DNA of 64,000 nucleotides, taken from NCBI RefSeq assembly GCF_003075095.1, contig NZ_QCZF01000012.1, forward strand, positions 62,001-126,000, given 5' to 3'. Made by a program: the position numbers and the translations under genes. Each line of letters opens with the position of its first letter. Within the stretch, counting starts at the first letter, position 1. Shown piece by piece: positions 6,893 to 55,391 of this stretch. The notes beneath the pieces are model-generated. The model was given only the letters and a program-made list of their open reading frames with translations, made no database searches and was not told the origin of the DNA. This DNA comes from Blastococcus litoris (GTDB taxonomy: Bacteria; Actinomycetota; Actinomycetes; Mycobacteriales; Geodermatophilaceae).

Positions 6893-8752
6893 GCCGCCGG
6901 CGGCCGCTGACGCCGAGGTGCCGGCCGAGCACGAGGTCCCCAGCGACCTGGCGCTGGCCGCGGAGTTCGAGGCGGCGACGCGCGACCAGTGGCGCGAGCT
7001 GGTGGCCGGCGTGCTGCGCAAGGCCGGCCGCGAGGAGCTGCCCGACCCGGTCGAGGACGCCCTGAGCCGCACGGTCGCCACGGGCGTCCGGGTGGCGCCG
7101 CTGTACACCGCCGAGGACGTCGCCGACCTGCCTGCCGCCGTCGGGGTCCCCGGGCTCGCGCCGTTCGTGCGCGGGTCCCGGGCCGGCGCCGATCCGGAGA
7201 GCGGGGTGCCCGGCGGCTGGGACGTCCGCCAGCGGCACGCGCACCCGGACGTCGCCGTGACGAAGGAGGCGATCGCCGCCGACCTCGAGAACGGCGTCAC
7301 GTCGCTGTGGCTCGTCGTCGGCGAGGGCGCGGTGCCGGCGCAGGAGCTGGGCGCGGTGCTCTCCGACGTCTACCTCGACCTGGCACCCGTGGCCGTGACC
7401 GGTGGCCTGCCGGCCGCCGAGGCGTTCCTGGACCTGGTCGAGGGCCGCGACGACCTCGCGCCCGGCGGCTCGCTCGGCCTCGACCCGCTCGCCGTGCACG
7501 CGGCGACGGGGGAGCCGCAGGACCTGGCCGGTCTCGCCGACGTCGCCCGACGCGCGACCGCCCACCGGGGTCTGCGGGCAGTCGTCGTCGACGCGACCGT
7601 CTTCCACGACGCCGGCGCCTCGGTGGTCGAGGAGATCGGCTGCTCGCTCGCGGCCGGGGTCGCCTACCTGCGTGCGCTCACCGGGGGCGGTCTGGGCGTC
7701 GACGAGGCGTTCGGGCAGCTGGAGTTCCGCTACCCCGCGACCGCCGACCAGTTCACGACGATCGCGGGGCTGCGCGCGGCGCGCCGGCTCTGGGACCGCG
7801 TCGGCGAGGTCAGCGGGGCCGCGCCGGAGGCCCGCGCCCAGCGGCAGCACGCGGTCACGTCCTCGGTCATGACGACGAAGCGCGACCCGTGGGTGAACAT
7901 GCTGCGCACGACCGTCGCCTGCTTCGCCGCGGGCGTCGGGGGCGCCGACGTCGTCACGGTGCAGCCGTTCGACGCCGCCCTCGGGCTGCCCGACTCCTTC
8001 TCCCGGCGGATCGCCCGGAACACCCAGAGCCTGCTCGTCGAGGAGGGCCACCTCGCCCGCGTCCTCGACCCGGCCGGCGGCTCCTGGTACGTCGAGTCGC
8101 TGACCGACCAGCTCGCGCAGGCGGCCTGGGACTGGTTCACCGAGATCGAGCGGGCCGGTGGCCTGGCGGCGGCACTCGACTCCGGCCTGGTGCGCGACCG
8201 CCTCGCCGCCGCCTGGGACGAGCGGGCGAAGCGCCTGGCCACCCGGGCGGAGGCCATCACCGGCGTCAGCGAGTTCCCCAACCTCGCCGAGAAGCTGCCG
8301 GCCCGCGAGCCCTACGCCTGGTCGGCGCCGGGCGGCGGGCTGCCGCGCGTCCGGGCCGCGCAGGAGTTCGAGGCCCTGCGCGACGCCGCCGACGCCGCGG
8401 AGACCCGCCCGGCGGTCTACCTCGCCACGATCGGACCGATCGCGAAGCACACGGCCCGGGCCACGTTCGCCGGCAACCTGTTCCAGGCCGGCGGCCTGGG
8501 GACGCCGTCCGGGGACGGCGCGTCCGGCCTCGCGGGGGCCGGGACGACGGTCGCCTGCATCTGCGGCACCGACGAGGACTACGCGGAGTCGGCCGCCGCG
8601 CTGGCGGCGGAGCTCCGGGCCGCCGGGGCGACGTCGGTCTGGCTGGCCGGCAAGCCCGACCTGGGGGTCGACGGGGTCGACGGCTACGTCTTCGCCGGGT
8701 GCGACGCGCTCGACGTGCTGCGCACCGCGCACGAGCAGCTGGGAGTCCAGGC

Positions 8753-8756
<4 letters not shown>
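6867..8756 (+). CDS. mutA: Methylmalonyl-CoA mutase small (beta) subunit
   Basis: This is the small subunit of heterodimeric adenosylcobalamin-dependent methylmalonyl-CoA mutase, which isomerises (R)-methylmalonyl-CoA to succinyl-CoA. At 629 aa it has the normal length. The TIM-barrel half shows paralogous features of the large subunit ([23 protein letters not shown], split at the family's conserved RxPWx[21 protein letters not shown]). The C-terminal cobalamin-type domain lacks the DxHxxG histidine motif, as is normal for the non-catalytic subunit. GAGGAGAG lies upstream within the M20 gene. The TGA overlaps the ATG of mutB. Together with the carboxylase subunits at 20-24 kb it completes most of the propionyl-CoA to succinyl-CoA route. 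Confidence 0.93.
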
Positions 8757-10977
<2,221 letters not shown>

Positions 10978-24542: not shown

Positions 24543-26375
24543 TCAGCGGGCGCCCGCCGCGCTGAGCTGCCGCGTCTCGGCCGGCTGGTCCTCCTCGGGG
24601 GACTCGCCGGCCCCGGTGGACGGTGCGACCGCGTCCTCCGGGGCGGGGGCGCCCACGACCGTGTCCGGGCGGCGGCGGGCGATCAGCCAGTAGGCGAGGG
24701 CGACGAGCGCGGCACCGACGAGTCCCACCGCGATCGCGCGGCGGGACATCGGCCCCTCGGCGCCCAGCACCGCGGTGACCGTGCCGACCTGCACCCAGGA
24801 CCCGTCGTAGGACATGAAGGGGACGTAGGTCAGCAGGCAGTGGACGACGCCGGCGGCGGTGACCAGCGCCGCGGCCCACGGGCGCCGGTCCGCGAGCCAG
24901 GCCATCGGCAGCGCGAGCGCGACGAGGATGACCACGTGGGTGCTGTGGTGCACCACGGTCGTCGACGGCCCGAACATGACCATCGCCCAGATGAGCACGC
25001 TGAGGACGCTGGCGCCCAGCAGCAGCACGACGCGCGCGGCGAAGCCGTCGCGCGGGCGGCCGCGGACGGCCCCGAGGACGACGGCGGCGATCACCGCGGC
25101 GACGGCCAGCCACCCGATCCCGATGGCGCCGGAGAACGTGAAGAACTCCGCCGCGCGGTGCGAACCCAGGTCGAGGTCGTGGAGGCCGATCCCGCGCCAG
25201 GGGCCCATGCTCAGGGGCATCGTCAGGTTCGCCCACTTGTTGGCGAGGACGGTGTCCCAGCCGGCGTCGGCGTAGGCGGCGGTCACCTGGTCGACCACAC
25301 CGCCGTCCGCGGGGTCGGGGTAGCCGATGTTGGCCAGGTGCCAGAACAGCAGGCGGGTGCCCGGCGGGTCGTAGAACTTCTGGTAGAGCACCCAGGGCAG
25401 GTAGGCGGCACCGGAGATCGCGACGGCCGCGCCCGCCGCGCGGAGGGTCAGCGCGCGCCGGCGCCACAGCAGGACGACGAGGACGATCGGGACGGCGAAG
25501 AGGGCGGCGCCGTGGGAGAGCAGCCCGAGGACGACGAGCACGCCGGCCAGGCCGAGCCGCTGCCAGGAGAGCCGGCTCCCGGTGGACGAGTGCTCGACCA
25601 GCACCGCGAGCGCGGCCAGCACGAAGGCCGCGGAGATCAGCTTCGGCCACGTGAAGACCGTGTTCACCAGGACCGTGCCGGTCATCGCCGCGAACAGCAT
25701 GCCGGTGAGCACGCCGCGGGCCCGCCCGCCGAGGGCACGGATCAGGATGGCGATGCCGGGGAGCCAGGCGAACTGGGCGACGACGCCGGCCGAGAACCCG
25801 GCGGCGCTGCGCGTCAGCCCCAGCCGGCCGGTGATGTCGTGCGCGAGCAGCATGAGCCCGGTCTGCAGGGGAGGCCGGTCGCTGCTCTGCCACCCGGCGA
25901 GGAAGGTCCGCGGGTCCTCGCCGGCGGCCAGCTTGTCGGCGAACAGCTGCGGGATCTCGTTGTCGATGGGCAGGGGGTGCGAGAAGCGCGAACGAGCCAG
26001 CTCGAAGGGGTCGCGAACGGTGTCCCAGAGGCCGATCAGGGCGACGGTGACGACGGAGATGCCGAGCAGCATCGCGACCGCGGGCAGCACCGAGACCAGC
26101 GCGCGCCGGGTCTCCGCGGAGCGCCGGCAGGAGATCGCGACCACGACGGCGGCACCCAGCAGCGCGGCCGAGCCCAGGAGGCGGCCCGCGAGGGGGGACA
26201 GCAGGTAGGCCCAGAAGACCGCCCAGCCCACGATGCCGAGCGTCGCGAGACCGAAGGCCGTCGCCAGCACGGGGCCGACCCTCGGGCGTCGCGCCGCGAG
26301 GCAGAAGCCGGCCGTGCCGATGAGGGCGTACGCGAGGCCGGCGACCAGCGCGCCCACCATCAGTCCGTTCACCAC
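24543..26375 (-). CDS. Polytopic membrane protein, GT-C-glycosyltransferase-like, function unknown
   Basis: This 610-aa integral membrane protein has roughly 13-14 predicted hydrophobic segments from the N-terminus to about residue 560. They are interrupted by a larger polar stretch around residues 120-185 ([20 protein letters not shown]...), which resembles the first extracytoplasmic loop of GT-C-type transferases with its acidic and proline residues. The C-terminal 45 residues are acidic, Pro-rich and likely cytoplasmic. I do not recognise a named family. GT-C enzymes use polyprenyl-phosphate sugars on the outer face of the membrane, which would fit the polyprenyl-sugar cassette at 34-38 kb (inference). 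Two GTG codons in a row (26375, 26372) are possible starts, with a GGGGGA upstream. Confidence 0.65.
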
Positions 26376-33618: not shown

Positions 33619-34137
33619 TCAGACCTCCTGGCGCACGGGCGCCGCGGAACGGCGCACCGCCTGCTGCTCCCGGTAGGCGACCGCCGCGGGGGCGTCGTCG
33701 GCCACGAACACCCACCGCCGGTAGGCGAGGAAGCGGATCACCGTCCCGGTCGCGATCGCCCCCACGTTCACGGCCTGGAGGACCAGGGCGCTGTCCTGGC
33801 CCAGCACGTCGTGGGCGACGGCGACCGCGACGACCCCGACGGCGAGGGTCACGCCGTTGACGACGAAGAAGATCCCGTACTCGCGGCGCAGGCCGGTGTG
33901 CGCGCGGTGCGAGAACGACCACAGCCGGTGGCCGAAGTAGGCCACCGTCATCGACACGAGCGCGGAGACGGCCTTGGCCGCCACGGCGGCGGTGCCCGCC
34001 GCCGCGTACAGGAGCTGGAAGACCCCGACGTCGATGACGAAGCACACGGCGCCGACGACCCCGAACATGCCCATCTCCCGGACCAGCAGCCGCCAGTCGC
34101 GGCGGGCGCCGGCGGTCGTGCCACCCCGTGCAGGCAT
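33619..34137 (-). CDS. GtrA-family membrane protein
   Basis: This 172-aa protein has four transmembrane helices in the GtrA pattern: FGVVGAVCFVIDVGVFQLLY first, then a KAVSALVSMTVAYFGHRLWSF second helix with the conserved aromatic/basic end, a third helix after RREYGIFFVVNG, and a fourth ending FLAYRRWVF. GtrA proteins are thought to flip polyprenyl-phosphate-linked sugars across the membrane. It is the probable counterpart of Rv3277. The ATG lies six nt after TAGCAT, predicting a leaderless message, and the gene diverges from the second, different GtrA gene at 34293. C-terminal tail is Ala/Arg-rich. Confidence 0.88.
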   Translation of the reverse strand: MPARGGTTAGARRDWRLLVREMGMFGVVGAVCFVIDVGVFQLLYAAAGTAAVAAKAVSALVSMTVAYFGHRLWSFSHRAHTGLRREYGIFFVVNGVTLAVGVVAVAVAHDVLGQDSALVLQAVNVGAIATGTVIRFLAYRRWVFVADDAPAAVAYREQQAVRRSAAPVRQEV

Positions 34138-34149: not shown

Positions 34150-34276
34150 GGCGGCCCGGGCCCGTCCCGGGACCCGTTCCAGCCGGCGCCAGGGGTCCCA
34201 GGTGGTTCCTGTGTGACGAATGGGTGCGGTGAGCCGAGGTCCCCCGAGCAGTCGCTCGCAGCGCTCCCGCGTGCAT

Positions 34277-34282
34277 TAACGT
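34277..34282 (+). promoter_or_regulatory. -10 element TAACGT upstream of the acetamido-sugar operon
   Basis: TAACGT ends ten nt before GTG 34293, so the transcript would have a leader of only a few nt. The alternative GTG at 34281 overlaps the hexamer, which argues against it as start codon. Confidence 0.4.
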
Positions 34283-34292
34283 GGCGCCCGTT

Positions 34293-34697
34293 GTGACTGT
34301 CGAATCCCCCGTGAGCGCCGGCCGGGACACCCCGGGGACGCTCGTCCGCTACGTCGCCGTGGGCGTCCTCAGCCTGGTCGTCGACGCCGGGACGCTGTGG
34401 CTCCTGTACGACGGCGCCGGCACCTCCCTGTGGCTGGCGACCACCGCGGGCTTCTGGCTGAGTTTCGCCGTCAACTTCCTGGCCAACAAGTACGTCACCT
34501 TCGGTGCCCGTGCCCACGGTGCGCGGCAGCTGATCCGCTACTGCGTCCTCGTCGGCCTGAACTACCTGGCCAACCTGGGCATCGTCGCCGGCCTGGTGGC
34601 CGTCGGCCTGCCGGCGGTGGTCGCGAAGGTCATCGCCGTCGCCGTGCTCAGCATCGTGAACTTCATCGCCTACAGACAGTGGGTCTTCCGTGAGTGA
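34293..34697 (+). CDS. GtrA-family flippase-like protein opening the acetamido-sugar operon
   Basis: This 134-aa protein has four transmembrane segments with GtrA features: TLVRYVAVGVLSLVVDAGTL at helix 1, WLSFAVNFLANKYVTF at helix 2 (conserved Asn-x3-Asn-Lys and aromatic end), LIRYCVLVGLNYLANLGIV at helix 3, and a final helix ending FIAYRQWVF. It probably helps move a polyprenyl-phosphate-linked sugar to the outer face. It overlaps the next gene, an acetyltransferase, by 8 nt, and shares an operon with an aminotransferase, a dehydrogenase and a DPMS-like transferase. That suggests it is dedicated to the sugar made here rather than a general flippase. Confidence 0.88.
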   Translation: MTVESPVSAGRDTPGTLVRYVAVGVLSLVVDAGTLWLLYDGAGTSLWLATTAGFWLSFAVNFLANKYVTFGARAHGARQLIRYCVLVGLNYLANLGIVAGLVAVGLPAVVAKVIAVAVLSIVNFIAYRQWVFRE

Positions 34698-35241
34698 TTA
34701 CCGGGTCCATCCCACCGCGATCGTCGAGGACGGCGCGCAGATCGGGGCCGGTGCCTCCATCTGGCACCACGCGCACGTGCGCGCGGGTGCCGTGATCGGA
34801 CCAGGCTCGGTCGTGGGCAAGAACGTCTACGTCGACGCCGGTGCGGTGGTCGGCGCCCGCTGCAAGATCCAGAACAACGTCTCGGTCTACTCGGGCGTCG
34901 TGCTCGAGGACGACGTCTTCGTCGGGCCCAGCGCGGTGTTCACCAACGACCGCTTCCCGCGGGCCTTCGGGGCCTGGGAGGAAGTGCGCACGCTCGTCCG
35001 GCGCGGGGCCTCCATCGGGGCCAACGCGACGCTGCGGTGCGGCATCGAGCTCGGGGAGCTCTGCACGATCGCCGCCGGCGCGGTCGTCACGCGCGACGTC
35101 CGGCCGAACGAGTTGGTCGCCGGGAACCCGGCCCGCACCCTGGGCTGGGTCGACGTGCATGGTGAAGTGGTCAGCCGGGATGCGGAGCGTCCGCCCTCGC
35201 TGCCTTTCGGGGGAATCGATCAGCAGGAGGAGCCTTCATGA
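34690..35241 (+). CDS. Left-handed beta-helix N-acetyltransferase (WbpD/QdtC-like)
   Basis: This 183-aa hexapeptide-repeat acyltransferase starts VHPTAIVEDGAQIGAGASIW and continues with IGPGSVVG, VYVDAGAVVGARCKIQNNVSVY and SGVVLEDDVFVGPSAVFTND. The HHAH motif supplies the likely catalytic His. The FTNDRFPR segment is typical of WbpD/QdtC/FdtC enzymes, which acetylate the 3-amino group of UDP- or dTDP-3-amino sugars with acetyl-CoA. It overlaps the GtrA gene upstream and the aminotransferase downstream (ATGA). Given the dehydrogenase and aminotransferase in the same operon, its expected product is a UDP-3-acetamido-3-deoxy sugar. The last 25 residues are a non-repeat tail. Confidence 0.88.
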   Translation: MSDYRVHPTAIVEDGAQIGAGASIWHHAHVRAGAVIGPGSVVGKNVYVDAGAVVGARCKIQNNVSVYSGVVLEDDVFVGPSAVFTNDRFPRAFGAWEEVRTLVRRGASIGANATLRCGIELGELCTIAAGAVVTRDVRPNELVAGNPARTLGWVDVHGEVVSRDAERPPSLPFGGIDQQEEPS

Positions 35242-36341
35242 TCCCCATCTCCAGTGTCGCGATCGGCACCGAGGAGGAGGAGCTCGTCCTCCAGGTCCTC
35301 CGGTCCGGTCGCCTGGCGCAGGGACCGATGGTCGAGAAGCTGGAGTCCGAGTTCCGGGCGTGGTCCGACGCCGAGCACGTGATCGCCGTGTCCAACGGCA
35401 CCGTCTCCCTCGTCGCCGCGCTGGAGGCCCTCCAGCTGCCCCGGGGCACGGAGGTCGTCACCAGCCCGTTCACCTTCGTGGCGACGGTCAACGCCATCCT
35501 CGAAGCCGGTCTCGTGGTCCGCTTCGGGGACATCGACCCCGCGGACTTCGCGCTCACCCCGGAGTCGGTCGAGGCCGCCGTGACCGAGCGCACCTCCGCC
35601 GTCATGCCGGTCCACCTCTACGGCCAGGCCGCGGACATGACCCGGTTGATGCCGCTCGCGGAGGCGCGCGGCCTCGCCGTCGTCGAGGACGCCGCCCAGG
35701 CGCACGGGGCGAAGATCGACGGCCGCCGCGTCGGCTCCTTCGGCGTCGGGTCCTTCTCCCTGTACGCGACGAAGAACCTCATGTCCGGTGAGGGTGGTCT
35801 GGTCACGACCAACGACGCCGCGGTCGCCGACCGGCTGCGGCTGATCCGCAACCAGGGCATGCGGGCCCGGTACCAGTACGAGCTGGCCGGCCACAACTTC
35901 CGCATGACCGAGCTCCAGGCCGCCGTCGCCCTCCCGCAGCTGTCCCGCCTCGAGGCCGGGACCAAGCGGCGGGTCGAGAACGCCCGGCGCCTGACCGAGG
36001 GCCTGGCCGGCATCCCCGGTCTCGTGCTCCCGGCCGTCGCCGAGGGGCGCGAGCACGTGTGGCACCAGTACACGGTGCGCATCACCGAGGAGTCGGGGAC
36101 CACCCGCGAGAAGGTCGCGGACCGGCTCACCGAGAGCGGCGTCGGGTCGGGCTTCTACTACCCGCGCCCCGTCTACGACTACGACTGCTACCGCGACCAC
36201 CCCGGCGTCATCGTCGAGGACCACCCGGTCACCGAGCGGGTCAGCCGCGAGGTCATCTCGCTGCCCGTCCACCCGGCGCTGAGCGACGGCGACGTCGACA
36301 CCGTCGTCCGTGCCGTGCGGGGTGCGCTCGATGTCGACTGA
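35238..36341 (+). CDS. DegT/DnrJ/EryC1 sugar aminotransferase (WbpE-like)
   Basis: This PLP enzyme of 367 aa belongs to the sugar aminotransferase family. It has the N-terminal GRLAQGPMVEKLE, the PLP-phosphate loop SNGTVSL, TSPFTFVATVNAI, the EDAAQAHGA segment with the PLP-binding Asp, and FSLYATKNLMSGEGG whose Lys forms the internal aldimine. Substituting a basic/aromatic TKN for the more common HPTK-type loop is normal for the WbpE branch. It would transfer an amino group from glutamate to a 3-keto UDP-sugar. The ATG overlaps the acetyltransferase stop, and the dehydrogenase gene begins 11 nt before its own stop. Position in the operon supports C3 amination; C4 amination cannot be excluded. 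Confidence 0.9.
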   Translation: MIPISSVAIGTEEEELVLQVLRSGRLAQGPMVEKLESEFRAWSDAEHVIAVSNGTVSLVAALEALQLPRGTEVVTSPFTFVATVNAILEAGLVVRFGDIDPADFALTPESVEAAVTERTSAVMPVHLYGQAADMTRLMPLAEARGLAVVEDAAQAHGAKIDGRRVGSFGVGSFSLYATKNLMSGEGGLVTTNDAAVADRLRLIRNQGMRARYQYELAGHNFRMTELQAAVALPQLSRLEAGTKRRVENARRLTEGLAGIPGLVLPAVAEGREHVWHQYTVRITEESGTTREKVADRLTESGVGSGFYYPRPVYDYDCYRDHPGVIVEDHPVTERVSREVISLPVHPALSDGDVDTVVRAVRGALDVD

Positions 36342-37293
36342 CAGCGGACGCCTGCGCCTCGGTGTCATCGGCTCCGGGATCATGGGCACCAACCACGCCC
36401 GTGTCGCGTCGGCGATGTCGGAGCTCGACCTGGTCGCCGTGTACGACGCCGACCGGAACCGCTCCGAGAACCTCGCGACCGGCTTCGGCGCCACGGCGGC
36501 GGCCGACATCGCCGAGCTCGCCGGCATGGTGGACGCGGCCGTGGTCGCCACCCCCACCGAGTTCCACGCGCCGATCGCCCACCAGCTGATCGAGGCCGGT
36601 GTCGACGTGCTCGTCGAGAAGCCGATCGCGCCCGACGTGGAGACCGCGCAGCGGCTGGTCGACGCCGCCGAGGCGGCGGGCCGGGTCCTCATGGTCGGGC
36701 ACGTCGAGCGGTTCAACCCCGCGGTGCTGGAGCTCGGTTCGCTGCTCGACGACGTGATCCACATCGACGCGCGCCGGATCAGCTCCTACTCGCCGCGCAT
36801 CCGGGACGACGTCGTCATCGACCTCATGATCCACGACCTCGACCTGGTCACGATGATCGCCGGCGGGGCCGCGGCGGAGGTCATGTCCGTCGTCCGGGCG
36901 CCCCGCTCGGCGTCGGCCGACATCGCCTCGGCACTCGTGGCCTTCGAGAACGGCATCACGGCGTCCCTGACCGCCAGCCGCGTCGGCCAGAACAAGATCC
37001 GCCAGATCGACCTCACCCAGGCGGAGAACTATGTGACGCTCGACCTGCTTCGCCAGGACGTGACCGTCCAGCGCGTGCAGCAGTCCGAGTTCTCCTCCGA
37101 CCACGGCCGCCGGTACCGCCAGATGGGGGTCGTCGAGGTGCCGTTCCTCGAGCACCGCGGCGAGCCGCTGGCGCTGGAGCTGCGCCACTTCGCCGAGTGC
37201 GTCACGAACCGCGCGACCCCCCGGGTCACCGGCCAGGACGGTCTGCGGGCACTGGACCTCGCGCTGCGCGTGGCCGCGGCGCCGATCCGGTAG
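36331..37293 (+). CDS. Gfo/Idh/MocA oxidoreductase, UDP-sugar 3-dehydrogenase-like (WbpB-like)
   Basis: This 320-aa NAD(P)-dependent dehydrogenase has the Rossmann motif GVIGSGIMGTNHARV at residues 9-23, VLVEKPIAPDVE with the conserved EKP Lys around residue 97, and a RDDVVIDLMIHDLDLV active-site segment with HD. The MGxNHxRV signature and length (short for WbpB, about 315) resemble archaeal UDP-GlcNAc 3-dehydrogenases. It would make the 3-keto sugar for the neighbouring aminotransferase. The ATG at 36331 overlaps the aminotransferase by 11 nt. The oxidised sugar (UDP-GlcNAc or UDP-GlcNAcA) cannot be told apart by eye; no UDP-GlcNAc 6-dehydrogenase gene lies in this window. Confidence 0.88.
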   Translation: MSTDSGRLRLGVIGSGIMGTNHARVASAMSELDLVAVYDADRNRSENLATGFGATAAADIAELAGMVDAAVVATPTEFHAPIAHQLIEAGVDVLVEKPIAPDVETAQRLVDAAEAAGRVLMVGHVERFNPAVLELGSLLDDVIHIDARRISSYSPRIRDDVVIDLMIHDLDLVTMIAGGAAAEVMSVVRAPRSASADIASALVAFENGITASLTASRVGQNKIRQIDLTQAENYVTLDLLRQDVTVQRVQQSEFSSDHGRRYRQMGVVEVPFLEHRGEPLALELRHFAECVTNRATPRVTGQDGLRALDLALRVAAAPIR

Positions 37294-37301
37294 GACCGAC
37301 G

Positions 37302-38495
37302 ATGTACCGCAACCGCTCGATCGCCGCCGTGGTGCCCGCCTACAAGGAAGAGGCGCTGATCGGCACCGTCATCACGACGATGCCGGACTACGTCGACCAC
37401 ATCGTCGTCGTCGACGACTGCTCGCCCGACCGGACCTCCGAGGTCGCCCGCGCCGTGGGCGACCCCCGCGTGACGGTGATCCGGCACGAGGTGAACACCG
37501 GCGTGGGCGGCGCCATCATCACCGGCCACAAGAAGGCCGGAGAGCTCGGCGCCGACATCGACGTGGTCATGGCCGGCGACGCGCAGATGGACCCGAGGTA
37601 CCTGCCGGACCTGCTCGAGCCGATCATCGAGGGCGGCCTGGGCTTCGCCAAGGCCAACCGGTTCTTCTCGCTGCAGTCGTTCCAGAGCATGCCGCGGTAC
37701 CGGATCTTCGGGAACATCATCCTGTCGTTCCTGACCAAGCTGGCGTCGGGCTACTGGCACCTCTTCGACCCGCAGAACGGGTACACGGCGATCACGCAGG
37801 ACACCCTGCGCCGCCTGCCGCTGGACCGGATCGCCTCGCGCTACTCGTTCGAGAACGACCTGCTGATCCACCTCAACATCCTGCGAATACCCGCCATCGA
37901 CGTGCCGATCCCGGCCGTCTACGGCGAAGAGGTGTCGAGCATCAGCCTCAGACGGGTCATCCCCGAGCTGATGCGGCTGCTCATCTTCGGGTTCTGGCGC
38001 AGGTTCTTCTTCAAGTACGTGCTCTGGTCGTTCTCACCCATCGCGCTCTTCGTCCTGTCGGGGCTCTTCCTCAGCCTCTTCGGCACGGGGTGGGGCATCT
38101 TCGTCATCGTCAACACCCTCGGCCCGCCGGTGGCCTCGGCGGGATCGGTCCTGCTCTCCGTGGCCCCGCTGCTCGTCGGCGTGCAGATGCTGCTCTACGC
38201 ACTGATGCTCGACATCCAGGAGAGCCCGGACAGCCCGATGACGATCGACTACCGGCGCATGGCGGAGGCCGCGGCCACCGCCACCGCGGAGGCGCGGGCT
38301 GCCGCGGAGCTGGAGTCGCGCACGGTGCTGAGCGGACCGGCGGCCGGCGGCACCGCCGCTCCCGAGCGGACCCAGGTCTCCGCGAACAGCACGGCCGGTG
38401 CCCACGGCGCCGGTCCGGCCCCGGGCGGCCCGGCGCCGGCGACGCCCGCACCTCCGCCCGCACCTCCGGCCGAGCCGGGGCAGCCGGACGGCTGA
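37302..38495 (+). CDS. Polyprenyl-phosphate glycosyltransferase (DPMS-like GT2) with C-terminal membrane helices
   Basis: This 397-aa protein has a cytoplasmic GT2 domain (SIAAVVPAYKEEALIGTVI at the start, VVDDCSPDRTSEVA, and DVVMAGDAQMDP with the DxD-like metal site), then two or three transmembrane helices (about residues 228-300), and a long Ala/Pro-rich disordered tail of about 80 residues. DPMS-type GT2 enzymes charge dolichyl- or undecaprenyl-phosphate with a sugar. A shared operon with GtrA and sugar-modifying enzymes suggests it loads the 3-acetamido sugar on polyprenyl phosphate. The ATG is nine nt after the dehydrogenase stop. A strong terminator follows at 38521, so this is the operon end. 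Confidence 0.88.
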   Translation: MYRNRSIAAVVPAYKEEALIGTVITTMPDYVDHIVVVDDCSPDRTSEVARAVGDPRVTVIRHEVNTGVGGAIITGHKKAGELGADIDVVMAGDAQMDPRYLPDLLEPIIEGGLGFAKANRFFSLQSFQSMPRYRIFGNIILSFLTKLASGYWHLFDPQNGYTAITQDTLRRLPLDRIASRYSFENDLLIHLNILRIPAIDVPIPAVYGEEVSSISLRRVIPELMRLLIFGFWRRFFFKYVLWSFSPIALFVLSGLFLSLFGTGWGIFVIVNTLGPPVASAGSVLLSVAPLLVGVQMLLYALMLDIQESPDSPMTIDYRRMAEAAATATAEARAAAELESRTVLSGPAAGGTAAPERTQVSANSTAGAHGAGPAPGGPAPATPAPPPAPPAEPGQPDG

Positions 38496-38520
38496 CGGCG
38501 CCCGGCGCACTGCCGACCGC

Positions 38521-38559
38521 GACGCCCCTCCTCCCGTCCACGGACGGGGGAGGGGCGTC
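38521..38559. terminator. Strong hairpin terminator between convergent genes
   Basis: GACGCCCCTCCTCCCGTC (38521-38538) pairs with GACGGGGGAGGGGCGTC (38543-38559) with one bulged base and a 4-nt loop. It follows the sugar operon by 25 nt and could also serve the convergent acyltransferase gene. Confidence 0.85.
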
Positions 38560-38690
38560 GTCGTCTCCCGGCGGCTCCATGGGGCATGGGGACCGGTGCC
38601 GTCGGGTGAGCTGCTCCGCCCGGGCCCGCCGGCGGGACGGGGGCGTGGGTCCCGGCGGCGCCGGTGGGAGCCGCGCCGGCCGGACCGGCG

Positions 38691-39833
38691 TCAGGCGGGG
38701 ATCGACGCGGGGGTGTCGACCGAGCGCCGCGGCACGGGGAGCACCCGTCCGGTCGTCGTCGCCGGAGCGGGGCGCCTGCGGCCCAGCCGACGTCCCAGGC
38801 CGATCGAGGGCACCTCGACGAACCGGTAGGTCAGCTCGCTGACCGCGATCGTGAGCGCCACCCAGAGCAGCGCGGTGAGGACCGGACCGCCGAGCGGGGG
38901 GACGGCCGCCAGCACGAGCGCCTGCATGAGGTACACCGAGAAGCTGATGGTGCCCAGCCGGCGCAGCAGCGCCGGCACGGGCCGGTTCCGCAGCAGCATG
39001 CCGGCGACGACGACGGCGTAGGCGCCGAGCCAGGCCGTCAGCATCGCGAGGAAGGCGGGCGTCCCGGCCTGGGGGCTGCCCGGGATCGCGGCGGTGAGCA
39101 GGAGCGCCCCGGAGCCCATCGCGGCCACGACGCAGGTCGTCAGCGTCGCGAGCCCGACGTCGCCGCGGTGCCAGCGGTAGAAGACCGTCCCGGTGAACAT
39201 GGTGGCCACGCAGAAGGCGCCGGTCGGCGGGGTGGCCGACAGCAGCGGTCCCGCACCCAGCGCGAGCGCGACGCACAGCGCGGACGCGGCCAGCGACAGC
39301 TCCGTGCTGCGCCGGTGTAGGCCGAGGAGGAAGAGCACCGAGAGGGCGGCGTAGAAGAGCAGCTCGAAGGCCAGCGTCCAGTAGGCGACCAGCACGTTCG
39401 GCACCCCGAGGAGCAGCTGGAACATCACGGTGTTGGCCAGCCACTGACCCGAGGACATCGGCACGGCCGGCGTGAAGACGCCGACGGCGGCGAGGACGGC
39501 GGCCGCCCCGAGGCTCAGCCAGTACAGCGGGAAGAGACGGAAGAACCGGCTGCGCCAGAACGAGGTGACTCCACGGAGGCGCCCGTCCCGGCCGCCGCGC
39601 TCCAGGCTGGCGGGGATGATGAACCCGCTGCACAGGAAGAAGACCATGACGCCCATCTGACCCAGCAGCAAGCGGGTCTGGGTGAACTCCCCGAACGCCG
39701 GGAACAGGCTCTCCCCGACGTGCTGCACCAGCACCAGGGCGACGGCGAGACCCCGGAGCCCGTCCAGGAAGCCCATCCGCTGCGCGGACGATCGCGCCGA
39801 CGTCGAGGTCACGCTGAGTGTCGACACCGTCAC
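38691..39833 (-). CDS. Acyltransferase family 3 membrane protein
   Basis: This 380-aa integral membrane acyltransferase has MGFLDGLRGLAVALVLVQHV early (Arg and catalytic His), GQMGVMVFFLCSGFII and SFWRSRFFRLFPLYWLS in canonical order, and about ten transmembrane segments to residue 345. The tail is Arg/Pro-rich. It is smaller than and clearly distinct from the family member at 27.5 kb. The GTG start is supported by TAGCCT six nt upstream. It converges on the acetamido-sugar operon and diverges from purK. O-acylation of a surface polysaccharide or glycolipid is the likely job; the acceptor is unknown. Confidence 0.85.
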   Translation of the reverse strand: MTVSTLSVTSTSARSSAQRMGFLDGLRGLAVALVLVQHVGESLFPAFGEFTQTRLLLGQMGVMVFFLCSGFIIPASLERGGRDGRLRGVTSFWRSRFFRLFPLYWLSLGAAAVLAAVGVFTPAVPMSSGQWLANTVMFQLLLGVPNVLVAYWTLAFELLFYAALSVLFLLGLHRRSTELSLAASALCVALALGAGPLLSATPPTGAFCVATMFTGTVFYRWHRGDVGLATLTTCVVAAMGSGALLLTAAIPGSPQAGTPAFLAMLTAWLGAYAVVVAGMLLRNRPVPALLRRLGTISFSVYLMQALVLAAVPPLGGPVLTALLWVALTIAVSELTYRFVEVPSIGLGRRLGRRRPAPATTTGRVLPVPRRSVDTPASIPA

Positions 39834-49326: not shown

Positions 49327-50790
49327 TCAGCCCAGCAGGCGGACGGCGATCGCCGCGTACATCAGGACGCCGACGGCCACGACCGCGATCTGCATCGCCC
49401 GGGAGCGCAGGACGGTCCCACCGATGGCCAGCATCGCCGGGACGAGGGTGAGCCCGTAGCGCGCGGGGATGCTGAACTGGATGCCGAGCGACTGGTAGTT
49501 CATCAGCGTCAGGATGGGCGGGAAGGCGAGCGCGGCGACGGCGGTCGCGATGGCCAGCGCACGGACCGAGCTGCCCGGGGCCGAGCGCACCGCACCGACG
49601 ATCGCGAGGGCGAGCACGGCCACGTTGATCAGTGCCCCGACACCCGAGCCGATGGTCCCCTGGAGCGCCGACTGCAGGAACTGCGGCTCCAGCGGGGTGA
49701 CCACCTTGAGCAGGGAGCCCGGCAGCCAGCTCGGGTCGAACTCCGTCTGGGACTGCACGATCACCTGCGGGATCGCCCGCGGGTCGAGGGTGGCGCGGGC
49801 GTTCTCGAACATCGACCAGCCCAGGCCGACGACCGCCGAGGCGACGGCGAAGCCGCCGACCAGGACGATGCTGCGGCGGCTGAACGCCTGCCACCACGGC
49901 CTGGTGGTGAGGTCGGCGCGCTGCAGGCAGCGGACGAGCACGAAGACCGACGCCATGATCAGCACGAGCAGCGTGGTGGTCTTGAGCAGCAGGGCGACGA
50001 CCGCGACGGTGAGCGCCAGCCAGGTGGATGCCCGGCGGGCGTCCCAGCGGAACGCGAGCAGCGTGACGGCGGCCCCCGCGGCGAGCCCGGTCGCGTCGTT
50101 GGTGACGGTGGCGTTGGCCATGAGCACGACCGGCGAGGCGACGAGCAGCAGCGCCAGCCCGGCCCGGGCCGCCCACGGCACGGACAGCTCGCGCCAGAGC
50201 AGCCACATGAACCCGAGGGCGACGGCGAGCCACAGCGCCCCGGTCGCCCGCATGACGCTGACCGAGTCGACGTCGATGGACAGCTGGTCGGCGATCCAGA
50301 CGGCGGCGGCGGGGCCGGTGTAGTACAGCGGCGAGTGGATGAAGGCGGTCATCAGCCCCGAGTTGGGCAGGACCTCCTGGGTCGCCGGCCCGCCGCAGGG
50401 CGGGTAGGCCGACATCGGGTAGTCGATGGTGCGGCAGGCGACGGAGTCGATCGTCGGGGCGAGCCAGACGTCACCCGACTTCGGCACGGTGCCCTGGAGC
50501 AGGTGGTTCACGAAGTCGACGTGGTGCGGCTCGTCGTAGACGGAGAGCTGCTGGTAGGCCTGGATGTGCAGCGCGACGAGGCCCGCGCTGAGGGCGGTGA
50601 CGATGATCAGCGCCAGCACCGAGGGCGACAGCAGCCGGCGCAGCCCGGTCCGGTGGGCGGGGCGGCGGACGTCGGCGGGGGTCTCGTCGGTCCGCGGCCC
50701 GCCGCTGCGGGGCGCCGGGATCGCGACGACACCGACACCGTCGGTACCGGGGTCCAGGTCGTCCGGGGTCCGGGAGATCGTGCTGGTCAT
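49327..50790 (-). CDS. Polytopic membrane protein, probable GT-C-type glycosyltransferase
   Basis: This 487-aa protein has a polar N-terminal tail of about 55 residues, then about 11-12 hydrophobic segments to the C-terminus. The first large external loop after helix 1 contains YDEPHHVDFVNHLLQG. An acidic residue cluster at this position, often DE or ED, is typical of GT-C and related DUF2142-type polyprenyl-sugar transferases. The loop also holds VACRTIDYPMSAYPPCGGPA with two cysteines. AAAGGG lies about eight nt before the ATG, so it has a normal leader. It likely works outside the membrane with the glycan island that follows. Substrate unknown. Confidence 0.7.
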   Translation of the reverse strand: MTSTISRTPDDLDPGTDGVGVVAIPAPRSGGPRTDETPADVRRPAHRTGLRRLLSPSVLALIIVTALSAGLVALHIQAYQQLSVYDEPHHVDFVNHLLQGTVPKSGDVWLAPTIDSVACRTIDYPMSAYPPCGGPATQEVLPNSGLMTAFIHSPLYYTGPAAAVWIADQLSIDVDSVSVMRATGALWLAVALGFMWLLWRELSVPWAARAGLALLLVASPVVLMANATVTNDATGLAAGAAVTLLAFRWDARRASTWLALTVAVVALLLKTTTLLVLIMASVFVLVRCLQRADLTTRPWWQAFSRRSIVLVGGFAVASAVVGLGWSMFENARATLDPRAIPQVIVQSQTEFDPSWLPGSLLKVVTPLEPQFLQSALQGTIGSGVGALINVAVLALAIVGAVRSAPGSSVRALAIATAVAALAFPPILTLMNYQSLGIQFSIPARYGLTLVPAMLAIGGTVLRSRAMQIAVVAVGVLMYAAIAVRLLG

Positions 50791-52116: not shown

Positions 52117-52253
52117 GGCCGGTCCAGCCCGTGGGCCAGCAGGGGCGCACGCCCCGCGAGAGGTAGGTTGGGCGGAGCAGCGGACGGGCTCGCGACACGC
52201 GCGCGCCTGCTCTGCGGACCGCTCATGCGCCGACACCTCAGGAGTCGTTGATC

Positions 52254-55200
52254 GTGACCTCGCCCACCGAAGGCCGTCCCCAGCCTACGGAGTCCGCCTC
52301 GTCGGGTCCGGACGAGGGGACGGGCCAGGTGGAGGCGCCGGCCGTCGCGCAGGACCCGATCGCCGACAGCGCGCCGCCGGCGCCGGCCTCCCCCCGGCCC
52401 CCGATCAAGGCCCGGGTCCGCGACGCCGTCCGCGACCGGCTTCCCGAGGGAAGCCGTCAGCGGGCCGTGGCCAGGGCCGGGCTGCAGACCTACCGGGACG
52501 TGCGGGAGACCGCGGGCCGGATCCGGTCGCACTGGGCGATCCCGGGGGTGGCGGAGCCGTCGGCCCCGTCCTACCGCTCCTGGCTGCGCGACCACGAGGT
52601 CACCCGCGAGCAGCTGGACGCCCAGCGGGACTACTCCCGTCGCGCGCCGCACCCCGTGTCGGTCCAGGTCGTCGTCCTGCCGGGCGAGGGGGACGCGCAG
52701 CGGACCCTCGCGTCGCTGCGCGAGCAGTCCTGGGGGCACTGGACGGCGGTGGTGTGCGAGCCCGGCCTCGGCCACGCGGCCGAGCCGAAGGTCGCCGGCC
52801 AGGTCGTCCAGGCCGAGGGGGACCCGGTCGAGGCCGCCAACACCCACGTCGCCCACGGGGAGGGCGGCCTCGTCGTCCTGCTGCAGGCCGGCGACCGCCT
52901 GCGCCCGGACTGCCTCTACCAGGTGGCGCTGGCCGCGCACCGGGACCCGCTCGTCGACATCATCACCTGGGACGACGACGTCTGGGCGGGGAGCCGCCCC
53001 ACCGATCCGCTCTTCCGGCCGTCCTGGTCGCCGGAGCTCCTGCTCGGCACCGACTACGTCGGCCGGGCGTTCGCGATCCGCCGGGCCCGCTACCTGGCCG
53101 CGGGGGGTCTGCGCCACGAGGCCGGCGGCGCGCTCCACTGGGACCTGCTGCTCCGGTCGGACTGCGAGGCGGAGCGGGTCACCCGCGTGACCAGGGTCCT
53201 CAGCAGCGTCCCGGCGCGGACGGCCGTGCCCCCGGCCGACGCTGTGCACGTCGTCCAGCAGCACCTCGAGCGGACCGGCGTCGCGGCACGCGCGGAGTCC
53301 GCCGGCGACGGCCGGGTCCGGCTGCGCTGGACCCCGGAGTCGTGGCCGTCGGTCAGCATCGTGATCCCCACCCGGCACAACCGGTCGATGCTCTCCACCT
53401 GCCTGCCGTCGCTCGAGCGGACCGACTACCCCGACTTCGAGGTGGTCATCGTCGACAACGGCGGCCAGAGCCCGGAGAACGAGGAGTGGTACGCCACCCG
53501 CGGGCTCGGCTACCCGCTCGACGTGCTCTGGTGGCACGAGCAGCCGTTCAACTACTCCGCCGTCAACAACGCCGCCGCCCGGAAGGCCAGCGGCGACGTG
53601 CTGGTGTTCCTCAACGACGACACCGAGGTGCTCGACCCGGAGTGGCTCACGGAGCTCGTGGGCTGGGCCGTGCAGCCCGAGATCGGGGTGGCCGGCCTGC
53701 AGCTCACCGGCCCCGACGGGATGATCCAGCACGCCGGCGTCGTCCTCGGCATGGGTGGCTTCGCCGACCACGTGTTCGAGGGCATGGCTCCCGGCAGCGA
53801 CTCGATCTTCGGCTCCTCGGACTGGTACCGGAACGTGCTGGCCGTGACCGGTGCCTGCTGCGCCGTGACCCGGGAGCTGTTCGAGCAGGTCGGCGGGTTC
53901 GACGAGCGGTTCATCCTCTGCGGGTCCGACGTCGCGCTCGGCCTGGACCTCACCCTGGACGGCAAGCGCAACATCTGCTCGCCGTTCGCCGGGATCCGGC
54001 ACCTCGAGTCCGCGACGCGGGGCAGCACGGTTCCCACCGAGGACTTCTTCGCCAGCTACTGGCGGTACAACACCTGGCTGTTCGGCGGCGACCCGTACTT
54101 CAACCCGAACCTGTCCCTCGGCAGCCGCGAGCCCGTGCTCAAGGGGAAGTACGAGCCGACGCCGCAGGACCGCCTCAAGGACCCGCTCGGTCGCGACTTC
54201 ACGGCGTTCCGCCAGCGCAGCGACGCCGCCGAGTCGCGGATGCTCGCCGACATGTGCCGGGCGCTGCCCAGCGACGTGGCGGCCGTCGACGCGCTGCACG
54301 CGGAGAACGCCGAGCCCTTCGAGATCCGCACGGTGAACTGGTTCATCCCGGACATCGACAGCCCGTTCTACGGCGGCATCAACTCCGCCCTGCGCATCGC
54401 CGACGAGCTGGCGCGCAACCACGGCGTCGAGAACCGCTTCGTCGTGTGGGGCAGCCCGCCGGACTACTTCGTCCGCTCGGCGCTGGCGGCCGCGTTCCCG
54501 TCGCTGGCCGACTCCCAGATCGTCTTCTACGACGGCTCCGCCGAGGGCCTGTCGGTCGTGCCGGAGGCCGACGCGGGCATCGCCACGCTGTGGGTCACGG
54601 CCTTCGCCCTGGCCAAGGCTCCCGGGATGAAGCGGAAGTTCTACCTCATCCAGGACTTCGAGCCGATGTTCTACCCGGCCAGCACCCTGTACGCCCTCGC
54701 CGAGGAGACCTACAAGCTCGGGCTGTACGGCCTCTGCAACACCGACAACCTGCGGCAGATCTACGCCGGGGACTACGGCGGCAAGGGCATGAGCTTCGCG
54801 CCGGCCGTGGCCGACTCCGTCTTCCACGCCCGCTGGCGGCACCAGCGCACGCCCGGCTCCCCGGTGACGGTCTTCGTCTACGCGCGGCCCGGCCACTGGC
54901 GCAACTGCTGGGAGATGGCGTCGCTCGCCCTGGAGGAGCTCAAGCGCCGCATGGGCGACGGCGTCCGCATCGTCACCGCGGGTGCCTGGGCGACCGGGCA
55001 GGGCGCCGACGAGGACATCAAGCCGCTGGGGCTGCTGGCCTACCGGGCGACCGGCGACCTCTACCGGAACAGCGACGTCGGTCTGGCGCTGACGGTGTCC
55101 AAGCACCCGTCCTACCTGCCGCTCGAGCTGATGGCCTGCGGGGTGCCGGTCGTGGCCTTCGACAACCCGTGGGGGCACTGGATCCTCGAGGACGAGGAGA

Positions 55201-55391
55201 ACTGCCTGCTGTCGAAGCGGACCGCCGACCACCTCGCCGACCAGCTCGAGCGCCTGTGCCGCGACCAGCAGCTGCGCGAGCGGCTCTCGACCCGCGGCCT
55301 GCAGGACATCGCCGCGCGGCACTCGGACTGGGACAAGGCCCTCAGCGGCATCTACGGCTACCTGTGCGACCCGGAGGGGAGAGGCGCCTGA
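52254..55391 (+). CDS. Multi-domain glycosyltransferase: two GT2 modules plus WsaF-like GT4 half
   Basis: This is a 1045-aa cytoplasmic protein. After a disordered N-terminus come a divergent GT2-like module (about residues 120-340, with WDDDVWAGSRP), a canonical GT2 module (about 365-600: SVSIVIPTRHNRSM, VVIVDNGG, FLNDDTEVLDPEW as metal site, GGFDERF), and a C-terminal part (about 690-1040) resembling rhamnosyltransferase WsaF (WFIPDIDSPFYGGINSALRI, FYLIQDFEPMFYPASTLYAL, VSKHPSYLPLELMACGVPVV). It could add two or three sugars of a surface-polymer repeat unit; a rhamnose donor would fit the rmlA gene nearby. GTG 52254 has AGGAG nine nt upstream; a TTG at 52248 is too close to it. The stop overlaps the next gene. 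Confidence 0.88.
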   Translation: MTSPTEGRPQPTESASSGPDEGTGQVEAPAVAQDPIADSAPPAPASPRPPIKARVRDAVRDRLPEGSRQRAVARAGLQTYRDVRETAGRIRSHWAIPGVAEPSAPSYRSWLRDHEVTREQLDAQRDYSRRAPHPVSVQVVVLPGEGDAQRTLASLREQSWGHWTAVVCEPGLGHAAEPKVAGQVVQAEGDPVEAANTHVAHGEGGLVVLLQAGDRLRPDCLYQVALAAHRDPLVDIITWDDDVWAGSRPTDPLFRPSWSPELLLGTDYVGRAFAIRRARYLAAGGLRHEAGGALHWDLLLRSDCEAERVTRVTRVLSSVPARTAVPPADAVHVVQQHLERTGVAARAESAGDGRVRLRWTPESWPSVSIVIPTRHNRSMLSTCLPSLERTDYPDFEVVIVDNGGQSPENEEWYATRGLGYPLDVLWWHEQPFNYSAVNNAAARKASGDVLVFLNDDTEVLDPEWLTELVGWAVQPEIGVAGLQLTGPDGMIQHAGVVLGMGGFADHVFEGMAPGSDSIFGSSDWYRNVLAVTGACCAVTRELFEQVGGFDERFILCGSDVALGLDLTLDGKRNICSPFAGIRHLESATRGSTVPTEDFFASYWRYNTWLFGGDPYFNPNLSLGSREPVLKGKYEPTPQDRLKDPLGRDFTAFRQRSDAAESRMLADMCRALPSDVAAVDALHAENAEPFEIRTVNWFIPDIDSPFYGGINSALRIADELARNHGVENRFVVWGSPPDYFVRSALAAAFPSLADSQIVFYDGSAEGLSVVPEADAGIATLWVTAFALAKAPGMKRKFYLIQDFEPMFYPASTLYALAEETYKLGLYGLCNTDNLRQIYAGDYGGKGMSFAPAVADSVFHARWRHQRTPGSPVTVFVYARPGHWRNCWEMASLALEELKRRMGDGVRIVTAGAWATGQGADEDIKPLGLLAYRATGDLYRNSDVGLALTVSKHPSYLPLELMACGVPVVAFDNPWGHWILEDEENCLLSKRTADHLADQLERLCRDQQLRERLSTRGLQDIAARHSDWDKALSGIYGYLCDPEGRGA

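Follow-up and report, generated by a model that had tools for sequence, protein, structure and literature searches.

An apparently inserted five-gene cassette of Blastococcus litoris that may supply a rare lipid-linked amino sugar for surface glycosylation

The 64,000-nucleotide stretch of DNA analyzed here, referred to as the window, comes from Blastococcus litoris (Geodermatophilaceae; contig NZ_QCZF01000012.1, positions 62,001 to 126,000). It contains five tightly packed open reading frames (ORFs) on the plus strand that encode a GtrA-family membrane protein, a hexapeptide N-acetyltransferase (NAT), a DegT aminotransferase (AT), a Gfo/Idh/MocA dehydrogenase (GFO) and a family 2 glycosyltransferase (GT2). 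Together these genes are called the cassette (Table 1). The genes overlap by 4-11 bases and the last pair, GFO and GT2, is spaced by 8 bases, which suggests a single transcription and translation unit. A scan for sigma-70-type promoters found none. The GFO gene starts at ATG 36331 or alternatively at GTG 36310, while the start of the GT2 gene is most likely ATG 37302, which fits the family better than the listed ORF start at 37197. The guanine-plus-cytosine (GC) content at the third codon position of the five genes is 0.89-0.97. The original prediction, made from the sequence without database searches, had named these five genes and their enzyme classes. All five ORFs are real and lie at essentially the same positions, and the Pfam and PDB matches bear out the classes.

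Table 1. Cassette genes, the inferred insert and other features of the window (window coordinates; C12 is contig NZ_QCZF01000012.1)
Feature	Position	Strand	Evidence
GtrA-family small membrane protein, putative polyprenyl-phosphate-sugar flippase	34281..34697	+	PF04138 79.8 bits; 3 hydrophobic segments (crude scan)
Hexapeptide sugar N-acetyltransferase (NAT), WlbB/WbpD-like; predicted 3-N-acetylation of UDP-GlcNAc3N	34690..35241	+	PF00132 81 bits; top PDB match 3mqg 160 bits
DegT/DnrJ/EryC1/StrS pyridoxal phosphate aminotransferase (AT); predicted 3-aminotransferase, GnnB/WbpE-like	35238..36341	+	PF01041 388 bits; PDB best 7b0d 235 bits, WbpE 3nyu 171 bits
Gfo/Idh/MocA dehydrogenase (GFO); predicted UDP-GlcNAc 3-dehydrogenase, GnnA-like	36331..37293	+	PF01408 105 bits; NF040723 225 bits (below cut-off of 450); PDB 7bvj 126 bits
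DPMS/AglJ-like GT2 with two C-terminal hydrophobic segments; predicted polyprenyl-phosphate sugar transferase	37302..38495	+	PF00535 71 bits; TIGR04182 AglJ 71 bits (below cut-off of 325); PDB 5mlz dolichol-P-mannose synthase 52.7 bits
Inferred insert (~4.6 kb), the minimal stretch that does not align to the empty site in congeners	34168..38725		Flank alignment to L103, L105, L110, L111; GC 0.708
Second GtrA protein (GtrA2), site resident outside the insert, could also serve as flippase	33619..34137	-	PF04138 76 bits; match in 14/16 genus genomes
DUF2142 GT-C-like protein, truncated at the end of the window; complete gene C12:125418-126932, 505 aa	63418..64000	-	PF09913 129 bits; SPDE motif; 10 hydrophobic segments (crude scan)
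GT-C-like multi-transmembrane protein, alternative candidate	49327..50790	-	PF13231 PMT_2 23.7 bits (below cut-off of 26.1); 7 hydrophobic segments (crude scan)
GT-C-like membrane protein, alternative candidate	24543..26375	-	DUF6541 18.6 bits (below cut-off of 29); 13 hydrophobic segments (crude scan)

All five Pfam matches exceed their curated cut-offs. The aminotransferase has an ATKNL motif from residue 177, and residues D39, D43, G92-D93, Q95 and D97 of the GT2 are invariant among 16 aligned relatives. Its DPMS-like sequence and two hydrophobic segments are those expected of a membrane-linked GT-A enzyme. A GtrA-type flippase is represented within the cassette and again by the adjacent second copy. 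The 3-aminotransferase and 3-N-acetyltransferase families of the Wbp pathway are both present, as seen from the PF01041 and hexapeptide matches and the PDB relatives.

Of 346 relatives confirmed in a search with the GT2, the 80 best loci were retained, all of them actinobacterial. They were searched with the other four cassette proteins, and their called genes were clustered. In 29 of these loci, which belong to several families, the AT, GFO and GT2 genes are contiguous and share a strand. Another 32 have AT and GFO as a pair that is not contiguous with the GT2 and lies at another place in the retrieved DNA. A GtrA gene lies at most 4.5 kb from the GT2 in 64 of the 80. The exact order GtrA-NAT-AT-GFO-GT2 recurs in one locus alone (L009, Geodermatophilaceae URHA0031), with 66-80% identity per protein and an adjacent DUF6541 gene. 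Nine Micromonosporaceae loci keep NAT-AT-GFO-GT2, with a divergent GtrA in seven; this order is not kept in the loci from Catellatospora (L072, L074) and Actinoplanes (L060). The order is AT-GtrA-GFO-GT2 in three Pseudonocardia loci and AT-GFO-GtrA-GT2 in most Microbacteriaceae cassettes. The neighborhood check that the original prediction had proposed for actinobacteria thus finds a conserved unit without a conserved gene order. This conservation is far beyond chance: proximity by chance is ruled out by the neighborhoods of the 80 loci and by the boundaries of the insert described below. A separate set of loci (L021-L031 and L039, mostly Arthrobacter, Paenarthrobacter and Sinomonas) carries GtrA-GT2-DUF6541 amid genes for UDP-galactopyranose mutase and export-type ABC proteins. 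The mutase Glf of L022 matches TIGR00031 above its cut-off and the ABC matches are below theirs. These clusters are possibly a galactan decoration system.

The five-gene block looks like an insertion. In four congeners (L103, L105, L110, L111), the genes for SbcC, GtrA2, an acyltransferase-3 protein and PurK are consecutive and the cassette is absent; the names SbcC and PurK were assigned by reading, and GtrA2 and the acyltransferase are Pfam matches. The window flanks align to these congeners up to at most position 34167 and resume at 38726-38783, and the insert contains exactly the five cassette genes. Cassette GC is 0.708 compared with 0.740 for the whole window, and 4 of 284 sliding windows have an equal or lower value. 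The cassette GT2 (E <= 1e-30) is found in 2 of 96 family genomes, this one and that of L009, and was absent from all 15 other genus genomes searched, five of which are less than 90% complete. The L009 cassette adjoins a biotin carboxylase gene whose counterpart at 20.2-22.0 kb of the window is 12 kb from the cassette, and so the two cassettes occupy different sites. A search for repeats flanking the insert gave one 11-base GC-rich direct match, which is not convincing. Among phage records, 51 matched the aminotransferase, all at less than 60% identity (best 36%). Three other Geodermatophilaceae genomes carry different DUF2142 modules within the same SbcC-PurK interval: DUF2142, GT2 and GtrA2 in G053 (L125 10130-13355), DUF2142 and GT2 in G006 (L129 8720-11400), and DUF2142 between GtrA2 and PurK in G056 (L128 about 7818-9269). 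The GT2 proteins of the G053 and G006 modules are 26% identical to that of the window, and these modules have no sugar enzymes. These DUF2142 modules make the interval look like a place where glycosylation modules are exchanged.

Counterparts of the cassette are found outside bacteria. Seven haloarchaeal plasmid regions were read, three of them from GT2 matches and four from 12 rows listed among 147 dehydrogenase records. All five regions that bear the acyltransferase-AT-Gfo trio (L136, L138-L141) continue into a nucleotide-sugar dehydrogenase. In one of the five, on pHTUR04 of Haloterrigena turkmenica (L136 4680-10059), the GT2 directly follows that dehydrogenase, all genes from acyltransferase and DegT to GT2 overlap, and the proteins are 40-45% identical to those of the window. 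This overlap into the GT2 bears on whether the trio and the GT2 work together. The trio might instead supply a soluble nucleotide sugar to a cytoplasmic glycosyltransferase, with GtrA and GT2 moving a different, common sugar and a shared wall locus explaining their co-location. Such an arrangement would fit the 32 loci with a detached AT-GFO pair, the existence of GtrA-GT2 pairs without the trio, and the two family members (G053 and G006) with a GT2-DUF2142 pair but no sugar enzymes at the same site. In addition, a gene at 62.5 kb, 24 kb from the cassette, encodes a true RmlA (TIGR01207, above cut-off), which shows that this organism makes a dTDP-sugar. Against the arrangement stand the AT-GFO-GT2 contiguity kept in 29 of 80 loci and several families, the insert of exactly these five genes and the Haloterrigena arrangement, and we consider a separate soluble donor improbable. 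A dTDP-sugar as the product of the cassette was set aside because the family matches are of the UDP-GlcNAc type, the insert holds no further sugar enzyme and RmlA is unlinked.

The acyltransferase position of the cassette is occupied by two different protein types. Among the 29 contiguous loci, 15 have a NAT, 12 have an LpxA-like protein, two have neither and none has both; NAT matches that overlapped an LpxA match were discarded as the same gene. All 15 NAT genes lie at most 1.5 kb from the AT or GT2, and four of these loci are from Streptomyces with another aminotransferase clade. The LpxA-like protein is divergent beside the aminotransferase in 13 of 13 loci (3 Pseudonocardia and 10 Microbacteriaceae; for example L010 6710-7432 and L036 6664-7380). 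Two of these proteins score 152 and 184 bits to the NCBIfam LpxA model (below its cut-off of 226), and one matches PDB 8e62 with 107 bits. In the aminotransferase tree the window row falls within a 27-row clade (support 100/100) that splits into a 13-row NAT group (98/85) and a 14-row LpxA-like group (99/94), with one NAT row, L047, in the latter. A separate clade holds the Streptomyces and Arthrobacter-type rows and most of those from Microbacterium. To our knowledge, actinobacteria make no lipid A, and the role of LpxA-like acyltransferases in such bacteria is a puzzle. LpxA acts on the 3-position of UDP-GlcNAc. GnnA and GnnB produce UDP-GlcNAc3N for lipid A (PMC7663294). Taken together, these activities point to a 3-amino UDP-GlcNAc intermediate.

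The product could be a neutral sugar or a uronic acid. The dehydrogenase scores 126 bits to PDB 7bvj, which we take to be GnnA, and 45 bits to 3q2k, which we take to be WlbA. Its best family is NF040723 (UDP-GlcNAc 3-dehydrogenase), at half of the cut-off. A profile for nucleotide-sugar 6-dehydrogenases (WbpA type), which recovers all five haloarchaeal enzymes as a positive control, finds none in the 29 contiguous actinobacterial loci (4-21 kb each). None was found around the cassette in C12:42001-132252 either; the rest of the genome was not searched, and a 6-dehydrogenase encoded there would weaken the case for a neutral sugar. Because the dehydrogenase is nearer to UDP-GlcNAc 3-dehydrogenases and no 6-dehydrogenase was found in these stretches, neutral GlcNAc3NAc is favored over the uronic acid of the Wbp pathway. 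The Wbp-type reading of the original prediction holds for the aminotransferase and acetyltransferase families; its acid-type chemistry is either mistaken or unproven. If a 6-dehydrogenase elsewhere made UDP-GlcNAcA, the trio could convert it to UDP-GlcNAc3NAcA, which would then be lipid-linked and flipped. This would agree with the closest PDB match of the NAT, 3mqg, which is presumably WlbB, an enzyme of the acid pathway, with the dehydrogenase of the haloarchaeal operons, and with a Streptomyces griseus wall polymer reported to contain ManNAc3NAcA and GlcNAc3NAcA (PMC13274773). Given the dehydrogenase scores and the 6-dehydrogenase searches, a uronic acid is quite unlikely here. Sequence comparisons therefore favor neutral UDP-GlcNAc3NAc as the predicted product in Blastococcus, and a uronic acid in haloarchaea.

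A lipid-linked sugar flipped by GtrA would be used by a glycosyltransferase of the multi-transmembrane GT-C type on the outer face. In the loci of the relatives, we called proteins GT-C-like if they had at least 8 hydrophobic segments and 400 aa. In line with the GT-C transferase implied by the original prediction, such genes stand beside the cassette in many relatives: 24 of the 29 contiguous loci have one at a distance of no more than 5 kb, and in 18 it directly adjoins the cassette. GT-C-like proteins make up 19 of 43 immediate neighbors of the cassette, versus 24 of 222 genes elsewhere in these loci (P 1e-6, inflated because the loci are related). The adjacent types are DUF6541 (L009, Pseudonocardia), DUF2142 (Micromonosporaceae, some Microbacteriaceae) and AftA-like (L061); families were assigned by Pfam for L009, L010, L022, L051 and L061, and by clustering for the remainder. 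The AftA-like gene, at L061 5138-7288 of Actinomadura kijaniata, encodes an arabinofuranosyltransferase homologue directly upstream of the cassette. The invariant residues D43-E44 of DUF2142 and QDWD of DUF6541 recall the modified DxD loops that have been described in GT-C enzymes (PMC8035078).

The three GT-C-like proteins that had been pointed out at 24.5, 49.3 and 63.4 kb of the window exist. The DUF2142 protein at 63.4 kb is our first candidate for the outer-face transferase. It is the sole homologue here of the DUF2142 protein adjacent to the Planosporangium cassette (30% identity), and its gene, next to that for RmlA, is separated from the cassette by 25 kb and from an ABC-2 permease gene by 3 kb. 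The other two are possible partners. The 49.3 kb protein has a distant profile match to DUF2142 (probability 80.7), and the 24.5 kb protein had no match to the profile of the cassette-linked DUF6541 cluster. The phyletic pattern does not help to choose between them, since each occurs in 1 of 16 genus genomes. The acceptor could also be a protein, or something else other than wall polysaccharide, which is compatible with every step up to flipping. The weak PMT_2 match at 49.3 kb and the resemblance of the GT2 to AglJ of archaeal N-glycosylation speak for a protein acceptor. On the other side are the UDP-galactopyranose mutase and export-type ABC genes around related GT2-GtrA pairs, and, no more than 30 kb from the window cassette, genes for LCP, GT4, an ABC-2 permease and RmlA; we regard this alternative as unlikely. 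The region of the ABC-2 permease gene also encodes a 1047-aa protein (window 52248-55391) with a GT2 domain and WsaF-type rhamnosyltransferase-like domains.

We propose that the cassette builds a rare amino sugar and loads it onto polyprenyl phosphate, that GtrA flips it, and that a GT-C encoded outside the cassette attaches it to a polysaccharide of the wall or surface. We think that this proposal is probably correct, with fair rather than high confidence. The sequences show the five genes, their conservation, the apparent insertion and the exchange of parts in two positions. Each enzymatic step, as well as the sugar, the lipid and the acceptor, is a prediction. First, the Gfo/Idh/MocA enzyme would oxidize UDP-GlcNAc at C3. 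The DegT enzyme would then aminate it to UDP-GlcNAc3N, and the hexapeptide enzyme would N-acetylate this to UDP-GlcNAc3NAc. The two-helix GT2 would transfer the sugar to polyprenyl phosphate at the inner face, and GtrA would give the lipid-linked sugar access to the outer face. Finally, a GT-C encoded elsewhere, perhaps the DUF2142 protein, would add the sugar to the wall or surface polysaccharide.

Several observations weigh against this proposal. Every NCBIfam match of the cassette is under its curated cut-off, and therefore no equivalog assignment holds. The NF040723 match cannot separate neutral from acid substrates, because this family is likewise the top match (190 bits) of a dehydrogenase from Streptomyces that belongs to the other clade. 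Two contiguous loci have neither acyltransferase: L016 is on a 4.2 kb contig, and L057, with a divergent GtrA, is a true exception, because a NAT gene would not fit there and just a remnant of 25 residues is present. The tree of the dehydrogenase conflicts with that of the aminotransferase on Pseudonocardia, whose rows are joined with NAT types in the dehydrogenase tree, so the module is partly mosaic. The AT/GFO/acyltransferase trio is missing from three proteobacterial regions with GT2 matches and from two of the three haloarchaeal ones. By the same cut-off, 11 of the 29 contiguous relatives have no immediate GT-C-like neighbor. No GT-C is encoded inside the cassette here and the three candidates are unlinked, so its earlier description as self-contained was too strong. 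The genome with the nearest relative found for the DUF2142 candidate (G050, 51%) lacks the cassette GT2, which weakens DUF2142 as a dedicated partner. A partner of the L009 DUF6541 type has no homologue in this genome, and a DUF2142 profile search of the PDB found no relative.

A broader and more tentative idea, for which we would claim less than an even chance, is that the donor cassette moves horizontally and across domains, installs a rare lipid-linked sugar and has two slots whose parts can be exchanged. In the N-acyl slot, a WlbB-like enzyme would add acetyl, or an LpxA-like enzyme another acyl group in bacteria that lack lipid A; the acceptor slot would take DUF2142, DUF6541 or AftA-like GT-C proteins. 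The SbcC-PurK interval of Geodermatophilaceae would then be an exchange site at which strains switch surface epitopes, for example against phages or lectin-guided toxins. If the proposed pathway is true, the range of GtrA-type transmembrane glycosylation would include a rare diacetamido sugar, with the genes for its synthesis carried along in one unit. It would also provide a genomic handle for predicting actinobacterial wall chemistry, and it names DUF6541 and DUF2142 as candidate acceptor enzymes.

We found no published description of this gene combination, although most subscription papers were outside the searched literature. The original claim that no such actinobacterial system is described stands for the gene combination but not for the sugar class, because wall polymers of Streptomyces were already known to contain 2,3-diacetamido uronic acids (PMC13274773). 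The Streptomyces utr cluster, which makes a teichuronic-acid-like polymer, likewise pairs actinobacterial wall 2,3-diacetamido sugars with a predicted sugar aminotransferase, but its product is a uronic acid and GtrA does not appear in the main text of its paper (PMC13274773). The Streptomyces loci found here, not shown to be utr, carry the separate aminotransferase clade. The gsf cluster of Actinoplanes missouriensis resembles the cassette as a predicted GtrA-dependent actinomycete surface glycosylation system with a two-transmembrane GT2, whereas the passages describing gsf list a UDP-GlcNAc/ManNAc dehydrogenase and no aminotransferase or Gfo enzyme (PMC13390465).

The cassette shares 3-dehydrogenase, 3-aminotransferase and N-acetyltransferase families with the WbpB/WbpE/WbpD pathway to UDP-GlcNAc3NAcA. 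It differs in having no nearby WbpA 6-dehydrogenase, in a dehydrogenase nearer to the GnnA/archaeal type and in an apparently lipid-linked output (PMC10622841). As with GnnA/GnnB, UDP-GlcNAc is predicted to be oxidized at C3 and aminated, and the Pseudonocardia and Microbacteriaceae relatives place an LpxA-like gene beside the aminotransferase. Unlike in that lipid A route, the acyl slot of the cassette is a WlbB-like acetyltransferase and the product would go to a GT2 (PMC7663294).

Multi-component transmembrane glycosylation systems include GtrA/GtrB/Gtr of Shigella, CsbB/GtcA/YfhO and GtlA/GtcA/GtlB (PMC8035078, PMC11127046). Like these, the cassette appears to combine a membrane GT2 that loads polyprenyl phosphate and a GtrA flippase, and its relatives have GT-C-like genes nearby. 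The three-component hexose systems add Glc, Gal or GlcNAc, whereas the cassette bundles rare-sugar synthesis and its presumed GT-C is detached here (PMC8035078, PMC11127046). Sugar-modifying enzymes are bundled in the pentofuranose three-component systems of Citrobacter youngae and in the mycobacterial arabinan donor route (PMC11127046). The pentofuranose systems likewise use an unusual lipid-linked sugar, made by enzymes, including auxiliary epimerases, that are encoded with the flippase and GT-C. Their donor comes from PRPP, is modified on the lipid and is moved by a MATE-type flippase, whereas the cassette would modify a UDP-sugar first and use GtrA (PMC11127046). These pentofuranose systems are a precedent for the bundling of sugar-modifying enzymes with such machinery (PMC11127046).

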